DNA of 64,000 nt from Methanomicrobiaceae archaeon (GTDB lineage: Archaea > Halobacteriota > Methanomicrobia > Methanomicrobiales > Methanomicrobiaceae), in assembly GCA_016937345.1 (NCBI GenBank), contig JAFGWE010000044.1:52855-116854 (forward strand), read 5' to 3'. This document shows, piece by piece, positions 38,617 through 41,606 of this stretch. The first letter of the stretch is position 1. Each line of letters starts with the position of its first letter. A program made the position numbers and the translations under genes. Under the pieces are notes generated by a model. That model had not been told where the DNA came from. It ran no database searches and saw only the letters and a program-made list of their open reading frames with translations.

Positions 38617-39441
38617 ATGAAACAGATAGCCCTCTACGGCAAGGGAGGAATAGGAAAATCCACAACCTCGGCAAACCTCTCCGCCGCCCTTTCTGAAAAA
38701 TCCTTAGATATTCTCCAGATAGGATGCGACCCGAAACATGACAGCACGCGCATGCTAATGCACGGGGAATGGATACCGACAGTCCTTGATCTCGTCCGTG
38801 AAAAAGGTGAGGCAAACCTCACAGTATCTGATGTTGTCTACACAGGCTACAACAACATCCGCTGCGTTGAGGCAGGAGGCCCCGAACCGGGTGTAGGCTG
38901 CGCAGGACGCGGAATTATTGCGACATTTCAGCTTCTGGAAAAACTGGATGCGCTTTATGGAGATGTAATTGTCTATGATGTTTTAGGCGATGTCGTCTGC
39001 GGGGGGTTTGCAATGCCGATGCGTGAAGGATACGCCCGGGAGGTCTATCTTGTTACATCCGGCGACTTCATGGCACTGTATGCGGCAAACAACATCTGCA
39101 AGGCAATTGCAAGACTGTCAAAACGGTCAAAGCCATCATGTACCCTAGGAGGAGTAATCTGCAACTCACAGAATATTGAAGGGGAATATGATCTGGTATC
39201 AGAGTTTGCCCAAAGAATAAATTCCGAACTTATAGGTTTTATCCCGCGAAGCCAGATTGTAAGAGTATCGGAAGTCAACAAAAAGACAGTCCTTGAGTAT
39301 GCACCCGAATCCGAACAGGCGGGAATATACAGAAAGCTTGCCGGAACAATAATGAATAACAACCCGGACCCAGATAAAAAACCAACACCACTCACAATGG
39401 ATGAACTCGAAACACTTGCACAAAAATATATCAAGGCTTGA
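38617..39441 (+). CDS. nitrogenase Fe-protein-like (NifH/BchL/CfbC superfamily) reductase
   Basis: The 274-residue ATPase has YGKGGIGKSTTSANL (P-loop, residues 7-21), GCDPKHDSTR (switch region), VEAGGPEPGVGCAGRG with cluster ligand C95, and DVLGDVVCGGFAMP with C128. These match the two cysteines by which NifH dimers hold one [4Fe-4S] cluster. It should pass electrons, with ATP hydrolysis, to the D-K proteins encoded next. It overlaps the D gene by 41 bases. The NifH-type C-terminus carries a short Pro/Lys-rich tail (residues 247-260). It is not itself proof of nitrogen fixation: no nifEN or nifB was found, and the partner proteins differ from NifDK. Confidence 0.9.
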   Translation: MKQIALYGKGGIGKSTTSANLSAALSEKSLDILQIGCDPKHDSTRMLMHGEWIPTVLDLVREKGEANLTVSDVVYTGYNNIRCVEAGGPEPGVGCAGRGIIATFQLLEKLDALYGDVIVYDVLGDVVCGGFAMPMREGYAREVYLVTSGDFMALYAANNICKAIARLSKRSKPSCTLGGVICNSQNIEGEYDLVSEFAQRINSELIGFIPRSQIVRVSEVNKKTVLEYAPESEQAGIYRKLAGTIMNNNPDPDKKPTPLTMDELETLAQKYIKA

Positions 39442-40492
39442 AGGCTGCACTGTAACAGGCGCACTTACGGTAACCGCATTTGTAAAGGATGCGGCAACAA
39501 TAGTGCACGGGCCGCACGGGTGCTGCCATCAGGCATCATCTGTCTTTCACTCTGCAATGCTGTATAACGAATGCTTTGATATCCCGGATATATTTTCAAG
39601 CGGACTTGATGAAAATGGGATTATTTTCGGCGGTGAAGACTGCCTTGAAGATGCAATAAAACAGGCAGTCTCTGAAGACTTTGGATGCGTCTTTGTCATT
39701 GGGACATGCATCAGCGATACAATCGGGGATGACATAGGTTCCATATGTGCAAAATACACCGATATTCCGGTGATACCCATTCATGCATCAGGATTTCTCG
39801 GCGGATCTTTTGAGAAGGGATTTTTTTCAGCATTAAAAGGAGTTGCAAAATTAATTGAAATTCCGGGTGAAAATTTAAACGTAATATCAGGTGATTCCTG
39901 CAATGACAGCCTTTTTGACGATATTCCTTTAGTAAATATAATCGGCGAGAAAAACCTTGAATACGAAGTTGAAGAAAATTTTTTGGAAGTAAAACGGCTC
40001 ATAAATCTTCTTGGAGCAGATATAAACATCAGATTTGTCAGAAACATAACCGTTGATCAGATTAAAAAATTCAGAAATGCAAAGCTTAACATCATACGTG
40101 AAGACCCCTCTGGAGAAACAGCCGCATATTTTGAAAAACTTACAGGTATTCCTTCACTATCACAGTTTCCATACGGAATCTCCGGTACTCTTGAATTTCT
40201 AAAAGATGCTGGTAAATGCCTTGGCATAAGTCCGGATTCGGCTATAAAAAAGGAAAAAGACTACCAGAAAGAAATGTTTTCTTCATTTGAAGATATCAGA
40301 GGAGAAAAGATATCATTTGACTCATTTGGTTTTCAAAAGGCTGAAAGCGAGCTTTTCTCAGAGATAAAAGATTACACAGGGATCTTAACCGACCCGGATG
40401 GAGCCGTCATACCAATTCCGTTTTATACACCGGTAGGAACAACAGGCGTTAAAAAGATGCTCTCCCAGTGGAGGAGATTTATAAATGCGTGA
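39401..40492 (+). CDS. nitrogenase component 1-like protein, NifD-like
   Basis: The 363-residue protein starts with ISRLEGCTVTGAL, then DAATIVHGPHGCCH and VIGTCISDTIGDD. Cysteines 16, 41 and 103 match the spacing of the three alpha-side P-cluster ligands of NifD. The C-terminal half is short, and the cofactor cysteine and histidine of NifD have no visible counterparts. CfbD-type N-terminal motifs (HPRPSPIAAA) are absent too. The ATG at 39401 lies inside the H gene; a TTG at 39416 is an alternative start. It overlaps the K-like gene by 8 bases. Function is unknown: a reductase of the nitrogenase superfamily. Confidence 0.85.
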   Translation: MNSKHLHKNISRLEGCTVTGALTVTAFVKDAATIVHGPHGCCHQASSVFHSAMLYNECFDIPDIFSSGLDENGIIFGGEDCLEDAIKQAVSEDFGCVFVIGTCISDTIGDDIGSICAKYTDIPVIPIHASGFLGGSFEKGFFSALKGVAKLIEIPGENLNVISGDSCNDSLFDDIPLVNIIGEKNLEYEVEENFLEVKRLINLLGADINIRFVRNITVDQIKKFRNAKLNIIREDPSGETAAYFEKLTGIPSLSQFPYGISGTLEFLKDAGKCLGISPDSAIKKEKDYQKEMFSSFEDIRGEKISFDSFGFQKAESELFSEIKDYTGILTDPDGAVIPIPFYTPVGTTGVKKMLSQWRRFINA

Positions 40493-41606
40493 ACTCTGCA
40501 CAAATCCCCTTTGGCCGTGTGCGATGACAGGTGCTGCATCTGCACTTGCCGGAATAAGCGATCTCGGAGTCATCATACACGGATCATCCGGCTGCTATAT
40601 CTATGCGGATATGGCCGTTCCTGACACCTTATACAGCACATTCATAGTTGAGGACGAGGTAATATTCGGAACATCTGAAAGACTCTGTGAGGTTTTAGAG
40701 AGCATATCACAGCTTTACAAAAAAGTTGCCGTCATCAACACCTGCGTCCCGTCTGTTATGGGTGAAGACATAGGAGGCATACTCTCGGATTATGATGTTA
40801 TTTTAGTTGACGTTGCAGGATTTAAAGGCGATTTTGATTCCGGATGGAAGAGCGCCATACAGGCTCTCAAACCCTCATGTGACGGAACAAAGGAATCTGT
40901 AAACATAGAGGGCATATGCTCCCTTGATCCTTTTTACAGGGGGAATTTAAATGAGGCTAAAAGACTTTTAGACCTTGCAAAAATTCCTGTCGGAACCACA
41001 TTCTTCCATGACACCTATGATTCGGTAAAAAAACCATCCGGATATTTCATATCAGCAAATCCTGATTACAATACTGGTCTTGCGGATGATGAAAAAAGTA
41101 TTCTTGGCATAATGGAGACTGAAGCTGTATTTGAGAAGCTATCAGACATATTCCCTGACGCCGAAACAGATTTGGTATTTGAACAGACAGAGGAAGCGGA
41201 TGAAATACTGACAAAAGCCGGCGAAAAGTTTCTCAGAAAATACGATCCCCCGCGTATTGCGGTTTTTTCAACAGGAAGCTACACAGAGTTTGCCTGCGAA
41301 ATTTTAAAACGATACCTCGATGCCGACATCGTCTGTGCGGGCGCAAGAAACAGGGAAGTTTCCATAAAAGACGGCATCAAATCCGGAATAATGGACCATA
41401 TCCGCCCTGTTGCATCTGCGATTGAAGATTCCCAGCCCGATATTATTATTGGTTCATCATTTGAGCATGCAAAATTCCCTCATATACCCTTTTTAGGACT
41501 TACATTCCCTATAAGACACATAAAGATGTTATATCATCGTCCTCTGGCCGGAATAGAGGGCAGTCTTTATTTTATGGACTCCGTCCTTAATACCCTTAAA
41601 AAATAA
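40485..41606 (+). CDS. nitrogenase component 1-like protein, NifK-like
   Basis: 373 residues beginning with CTNPLWPCAMTGAASALAG, then VIIHGSSGCYIYADMAV and VINTCVPSVMGEDIGG. Cysteines 5 or 12, 37 and 87 stand where the beta-side P-cluster ligands sit in NifK. The C-terminal domain (IAVFSTGSYTEFACEILKRYL, PDIIIGSSFEHA) keeps the Rossmann-like NifD/K third domain. It is the last gene of the H-D-K operon and a hairpin with a T-run follows about 100 bases downstream. It probably forms a heterotetramer with the D-like protein; the substrate is not known. Confidence 0.85.
   Translation: MRELCTNPLWPCAMTGAASALAGISDLGVIIHGSSGCYIYADMAVPDTLYSTFIVEDEVIFGTSERLCEVLESISQLYKKVAVINTCVPSVMGEDIGGILSDYDVILVDVAGFKGDFDSGWKSAIQALKPSCDGTKESVNIEGICSLDPFYRGNLNEAKRLLDLAKIPVGTTFFHDTYDSVKKPSGYFISANPDYNTGLADDEKSILGIMETEAVFEKLSDIFPDAETDLVFEQTEEADEILTKAGEKFLRKYDPPRIAVFSTGSYTEFACEILKRYLDADIVCAGARNREVSIKDGIKSGIMDHIRPVASAIEDSQPDIIIGSSFEHAKFPHIPFLGLTFPIRHIKMLYHRPLAGIEGSLYFMDSVLNTLKK

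Follow-up and report, generated by a model that had tools for sequence, protein, structure and literature searches.

A nitrogenase-like D-K pair in one operon with the likely CfbC of Methanomicrobiales

A 64,000-nucleotide stretch of a Methanomicrobiaceae archaeon genome (contig JAFGWE010000044.1; the whole stretch is called the window here) carries three overlapping genes for a NifH-like iron (Fe) protein, H, and two nitrogenase-like subunits, D and K. The locus raises the question of whether H-D-K is a reductase of its own, as an earlier note made from the letters had proposed, or belongs to a system already known from nitrogen fixation or from the synthesis of coenzyme F430 (CfbC and CfbD). 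The answer divides between the genes. By tree and profile, D-K is an uncharacterised nitrogenase-like branch, and H is the probable Fe protein of F430 synthesis.

The D-K branch and its distribution

The operon called in the earlier note is real, as the genes lie where they had been placed and their Pfam families confirm them:

38617-39441, + strand: H, NifH/CfbC-type Fe protein of 274 amino acids (aa); PF00142 at 355 bits; ligands C95 and C128; docking-face E137
39401-40492, + strand: D, truncated alpha-type subunit of 363 aa; PF00148 at 183 bits; C16, C41 and C103
40485-41606, + strand: K, beta-type subunit of 373 aa; PF00148 at 130 bits; C12, C37 and C87

D starts 41 bases inside H, and D and K overlap by 8 bases. 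The H-D overlap is retained across the order (median 26 nt among adjacent pairs, range -38 to +371), which suggests translational coupling. AlphaFold2 models of D and K reach predicted local distance difference test (pLDDT) scores of 87 and 91.8, respectively, and D is close in size to CfbD (354 aa). A protein search with a D alignment, whose best 120 of 671 matches were used for names, turned up D of Methanoplanus as "oxalate:formate antiporter" (P0001, P0070), a misannotation.

Residues of a P-cluster site are conserved throughout. C16, C41 and C103 of D are invariant in 32 of 32 aligned rows, as are C12, C37 and C87 of K in 31 of 31, and both triplets align to the P-cluster ligands of NifD and NifK. 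K also has C5 in 30 of its 31 rows; the residue aligned to the ligand is C12. D and K thus share with NifDK and MarDK the three ligand cysteines per subunit of a P-cluster-type heteromer, whereas CfbD rows keep two. In the alignment, D has no counterpart of NifD Cys275 and His442, the ligands of the iron-molybdenum cofactor (FeMo-co) (PMC3464626), and it also lacks much of the third domain; NifE, unlike D, keeps the cofactor Cys. Among H sequences of the order, all 144 that were aligned have both cluster cysteines. These residues had all been read correctly beforehand, with C12 now chosen where position 5 or 12 of K had been offered.

Phylogenetic analysis separates D and K from the known subunits. 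The tree comprised 58 rows, with 12 D, 12 K and 4 CfbD among them and no Bch sequence; a Mar-like pair from genome G001 stood in for Mar, and a plasmid search for reference sequences returned 3 Nostoc records. D and K each form a clade (100/99 in both cases), outside of which fall CfbD, NifD/E with Vnf/Anf D, NifK/N with Vnf/Anf K, a group-IV pair and the Mar-like pair. The four CfbD rows form their own clade (100/100), NifE groups with NifD, and NifN groups with NifK. Sister to D is the D half of fused H-D proteins (100/99). Several deep forks of this tree are open, and three rows, the Mar-like one among them, sit on long branches. Profile scores fall short of every cut-off: for CfbD (TIGR03282, 268.4 bits), D scores 51 and K 43; among Nif/Vnf/Anf DK profiles, the best values are 92.8 against 486 bits for D and 49.4 against 427 for K; for NifEN, D reaches 106 of 505 bits with NifE and K 27 of 327 with NifN; and for Bch, D reaches 59.9 of 490 bits with BchB and 54 of 529 with BchZ. 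In keeping with the earlier remark that none lies nearby, no nifB, nifE or nifN was found on the contig of the operon; elsewhere in the genome, NifB is on contig C47, over its cut-off, and other PF00148 matches are on C46 and C29. The idea of a separate reductase in the superfamily therefore holds for D and K, which lie outside both CfbD and NifDK/EN on their own branch.

The census covered 149 Methanomicrobiales genomes with a completeness of 85% or more, sampled evenly from a larger set, with thresholds of E<=1e-30 for D and E<=1e-40 for H and the profile cut-off for CfbD. D is present in 135 genomes (28 of 32 genera), H in 147 (32 of 32 genera) and CfbD in 145. H lies directly upstream of D, on the same strand, in 133 of the 135 D-bearing genomes. 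In G054, one of the two exceptions, H is found at a different contig's end; in G050, the other, D begins as early as base 404 of the contig, and the only NifH-like match reported is a weaker one. K, looked for in the fetched loci, occurs in 31 of 32 D-bearing loci with the window included, the exception (L108) being a locus cut at D, and stands apart from H-D in four (L094, L095, L107 and L109). Across 392 genomes of the phylum, D-profile scores of at least 389 bits are confined to the order, and the next listed tier, from 201 bits, consists of the fused H-D proteins. G005, a genome with the same genus code as the window genome, has a D protein named Methanomicrobium sp. W14.

The 14 D-less genomes comprise seven of genus code g31, one of g22, and G110, G112, G024, G099, G104 and G144. 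For G110 and G112 the lack of D is attributed to assembly gaps, since the G110 sequence breaks off 22 bases past H and a readable D remnant in G112 is interrupted by an N-run. D-less genomes branch at the base of the order in the H tree. In the CfbD tree they group (93/75) beside D-bearing G073 (95/91); this placement, together with a family code shared with D-bearing genera, favours one loss of D-K. A single loss rather than a gain is the simpler reading of these trees, although the H tree differs and the matter is not settled.

H as candidate CfbC

The cfb cluster of the window genome, on contig C29, reads cfbE-cfbD-cfbB-ilvE, each over its NCBIfam cut-off (CfbD, 508 against 268 bits), and cfbC is absent from it. 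With a separate cfbD present, the operon does not replace CfbD; a search for a separate cfbCD pair thus recovers cfbD, in a cluster without cfbC. H passes the NCBI CfbC profile NF033200 (413.3 bits against a cut-off of 402), and the sole other strong NifH-type match in the genome is the protein fused to a D-like half on C46. Exactly one NifH-like match occurs in 99 of the 149 genomes, of which 96 have CfbD, and in 88 genomes with CfbD the only such match is H beside D. Three single-match genomes (G024, G050 and G144) have only weaker matches. A cfb cluster without cfbC and 88 CfbD genomes with H as their only NifH-like match point to H as the CfbC of the order, a place left for it by the F430 step, which is reported to involve both CfbC and CfbD (PMC7242693). 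By these sequence comparisons, H is very likely the CfbC of Methanomicrobiales, and very likely serves CfbD and D-K in turn. The view of the earlier note that the whole of H-D-K is distinct from CfbCD is hence not supported: H scores as CfbC and is very likely not separate from F430 synthesis.

Loci without D and K are informative here. In five of them (four g31, one g22), H keeps the upstream flavodiiron gene and the downstream gene for a 140-aa protein in 5/5, with a kinase beside it in 4 and desulfoferrodoxin in 3, which indicates a use for H apart from D-K. F430 synthesis as such can do without D-K, as g31 has CfbD but lacks D. At least 16 genomes have CfbD and H at a distance of 11-17 kb from each other. 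H and the CfbC of other orders form separate clades with their deep branching order open (approximately unbiased test, p 0.41). In the open-access literature, to the extent that its text was available, no description of an H-D-K operon and no naming of a Methanomicrobiales cfbC was found.

Residue 137 of H adjoins R136, the counterpart of NifH Arg140 when counted from the cluster cysteine, the numbering being anchored on H C128, which we take to correspond to NifH C132. Arg100, Arg140, Lys143 and Glu112 are named in the contact of NifH with NifDK (PMC9571451), and the NifH interface has been placed around Arg140 and Lys170 (PMC10657360). Position 137 is acidic in all 134 H from 133 D-bearing genomes (117 Glu, 17 Asp; G101 has two H), and is Glu in the two gap drafts G110 and G112, in 7/7 NifH-type rows (two identical), and in the Mar-like and group-IV H. 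It is Lys in 8/8 H from the truly D-less g31 and g22 genomes and in 7/7 classical CfbC, and Lys or Arg in 4/4 fused H. Over 142 sequences, it is the only column of 274 without overlap between D-bearing and truly D-less H. An all-or-none search of 37 H sequences for one residue fixed in at least 94% of D-bearing rows returned none; a second listing of the same sequences brought out column 137, which a one-residue criterion misses because it holds either Glu or Asp. When small sets of D-bearing rows served as controls, between 0 and 3 separating columns of this kind appeared. This pattern fits an acid at 137 pairing with a 3+3-cysteine partner and a base with a partner that has fewer cysteines.

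What D-K may reduce

We propose, with slightly better than even confidence, that D-K is a two-component, ATP-driven heteromeric reductase of the P-cluster type that borrows the CfbC of the order, with a tetrapyrrole as its likely substrate. The H dimer would bind MgATP and dock alternately on CfbD2 and (DK)2, giving up one electron per docking. Electrons would leave the [4Fe-4S] cluster of H for a second cluster, either [8Fe-7S] or [4Fe-4S], that the six cysteines hold where D meets K, and the substrate would sit in the cavity that FeMo-co fills in other alpha subunits. This cavity should be free in D, where much of the third domain is missing along with the two FeMo-co ligands. Docking in turn, transfer through an interface cluster and a substrate in the free cavity are, taken jointly, fairly probable. 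The substrate is a more tentative matter: D-K may use electrons from H to reduce a tetrapyrrole, to which we give somewhat less than even credence. Three observations suggest it, namely the partner of the Fe protein in F430 synthesis, the fused sister mostly beside corrinoid and chelatase genes, and models that align best with BchB. Modified forms of F430 exist whose enzymes are still to be found (PMC11411713).

The window genome has one such fused sister. On C46 (L118:9225-12760), a fused NifH/NifE-like protein (750 aa) and a K-like protein (428 aa) neighbour CbiK, CbiZ, a BtuF/FecCD/BtuD-type transporter, an AAA-VWA chelatase-like protein and CobN (1196 bits). Elsewhere, L119 has all of these but CobN, L191 all but CbiZ, L194 CbiZ and the transporter, and L186 none, so that fused H-D loci lie beside corrinoid/tetrapyrrole genes in four of the five read. 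The C46 system could serve tetrapyrrole uptake or de-chelation with reduction; HmuS is a de-chelatase of the chelatase superfamily (PMC12583661).

Several points limit the proposal. Neither the F430 link of the Fe protein, nor the genes around the fused sister, nor the resemblance to dark-operative protochlorophyllide oxidoreductase (DPOR) proves a tetrapyrrole substrate. The change at residue 137 is one event within the order, and hence supportive only, and its column was found by searching, with few Fe proteins from outside the order compared. The archaeal NifN rows in the alignment also keep all three cysteines, so the 3+3 set is compatible with a NifEN-like role. A bolder version of our proposal, which we consider doubtful, has H driving CfbD for F430 and D-K on a second Ni or Co tetrapyrrole, perhaps in F430 repair or for an order-specific form; residue 137 would mark the kind of partner across the superfamily, and would have changed from Glu to Lys, as in classical CfbC, with the loss of D-K in one lineage.

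Among the alternatives, the one that survives best, while still unlikely, is a D-K that acts as a NifEN-like scaffold for the NifB-made [8Fe-9S-C] cluster, for example en route to the activation complex of methyl-coenzyme M reductase (MCR), with H as the ATP-dependent reductase. The genome has NifB, NifE is the best NCBIfam profile for D as well as its best Foldseek match, and the MCR activation complex holds such clusters (PMC12176620). A NifX-like gene also stands after K:

41726-42250, - strand: Nitro_FeMo-Co (NifX-like) protein, convergent with K; PF02579 at 42.6 bits; a neighbour only, not claimed as part of the enzyme

Homologues of this gene occur in 4 of 10 family loci read (L083, L085, L086 and L089 among L082-L091), and none was found in the loci read outside the family. 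D itself sits poorly with a scaffold, being without the Cys and His ligands and much of the third domain where NifE keeps the Cys, and so does its confinement, at 389 bits or more, to one order, as other methanogens also have MCR. As a separate observation, the NifX-like protein has a cysteine-rich C-terminal tail.

Less probable again is a reductase of C-S compounds for sulfur supply, in the style of methylthio-alkane reductase. By alignment and literature, MarDK has the same 3+3 cysteines, and cysN, cysD, cysC and cysQ lie 4-8 kb upstream in the window. However, D and K fall outside the Mar-like pair in the tree (on long branches), D lacks cofactor ligands, and no cysD, cysC or cysQ homologue was found in 40 loci read. 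We rate equally low a D-K that helps CfbD by passing electrons or modulating the same F430 step. H is probably common to both, and in at least 16 genomes CfbD and H are near each other, at the distance given above; CfbD is nevertheless kept in single copy in D-less g31 and g22 genomes, and in the published account CfbC and CfbD carry out the F430 step by themselves (PMC7242693). That H works for D-K only, with another electron donor for CfbD in this order, draws on the lack of a demonstrated grouping of H with classical CfbC and on a Glu137 as in NifH, but is very improbable given that D-less genomes keep H with the same neighbours, that 96 CfbD genomes have a single NifH-like match (H beside D in 88), and that H passes the CfbC profile.

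The remaining neighbours tell little about D-K, since several also flank H where D is absent. Recurrent upstream genes encode a flavodiiron protein, desulfoferrodoxin, TrkH and a phosphoribulokinase-like kinase, and recurrent downstream genes a 140-aa protein and an isopropylmalate-type dehydrogenase cluster. In 10 loci the 140-aa protein (c7, e.g., L121:15946-16371), for which Pfam gives no match, comes after K, or after H in loci without D-K. In the window, pstSCAB genes precede H, the last ending 63 bp before it; a link to them was set aside as no pstS, pstC or pstA homologue was found in the 40 loci, and they are taken as particular to this genome. The same survey disposed of a sulfur link through the cys genes. 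Genes for CysN, CysD, adenosine 5'-phosphosulfate kinase and CysQ stand in a row at 30850-34655 (- strand) and point to sulfate assimilation in a methanogen.

Other nitrogenase-like loci also turned up. In G023 (L187:4858-6129) and G009 (L188:7927-9117), the cfb cluster and an ilvE-like gene are closely followed by a single NifE-like PF00148 protein (about 400-424 aa, 283 bits), which is not among the PF00148 matches of the window genome. In G001, a close relative of the window genome, L193 holds the Mar-like D-K pair with a NifH-like gene nearby, and its D scores 240 bits to the methylthio-alkane reductase structure 9fmg (chain A). In G122 (L189:5920-8406), two PF00148 stretches share one 841-aa frame, the first without an NCBIfam match at E 1e-10, which looks like a D-K pair of another type.

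The locus points to an enzyme, as yet uncharacterised, that is retained across almost an entire order of methanogens. It also names the likely missing CfbC of that order, linking CfbC and D-K in one operon, and offers a direct test case for one Fe protein serving two catalytic partners. The role of P-cluster-type subunits without FeMo-co bears on the origin of nitrogenase from tetrapyrrole reductases, and the findings suggest that H of methanogens that do not fix nitrogen may be scored as nifH in amplicon surveys.

Comparison with known systems

H-D-K resembles CfbCD in an H that passes the CfbC profile and in D and K of CfbD-like size. It differs in having two paralogues with 3+3 cysteines and in Glu137 of H, against Lys in the seven classical CfbC. 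The fused NifH-NifE-like proteins with their NifN-like partner include the nearest relatives of D. In contrast to the operon, their H and D are fused, D is longer, and they stand mostly beside corrinoid genes; their partner has one of the three cysteines, with Asp in place of the first (4/4 rows).

MarHDK shares the heteromeric D-K, six P-cluster cysteines and a separate H, and the Mar-like H of G001 has Glu137. Mar D holds an [8Fe-9S-C] cluster (PMC12552129), whereas the present D has no such ligands and is shorter by about 150 aa, and the two form separate clades. DPOR and chlorophyllide oxidoreductase (COR), that is, BchLNB and BchXYZ, are likewise similar in part: in VIA the D and K models both align best with BchB, predicting a BchN/BchB-like fold, and tetrapyrrole reduction without FeMo-co is a DPOR/COR feature. 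Yet the Bch profile scores of D are far below cut-off (60 against 490 bits), and DPOR uses an Asp ligand for its [4Fe-4S] cluster (PMC3464626).

Group VI (PMC12176620/PMC9391474), for which a tetrapyrrole role is suspected or cluster content is debated, and the yellow clades of PMC3464626 were compared by description. The latter, reported in 2012, are NifE-/NifN-like pairs with 3+3 cysteines, and like D-K they keep the P-cluster cysteines while the cofactor ligands are absent. Fused NifH-NifE proteins are mentioned there as data not shown, and the section in question does not single out the D-K family or the sharing of H. The nitrogenase-like kind was thus already known from these pairs; what is new in H-D-K is the family itself, its compact D, its spread and its shared Fe protein.

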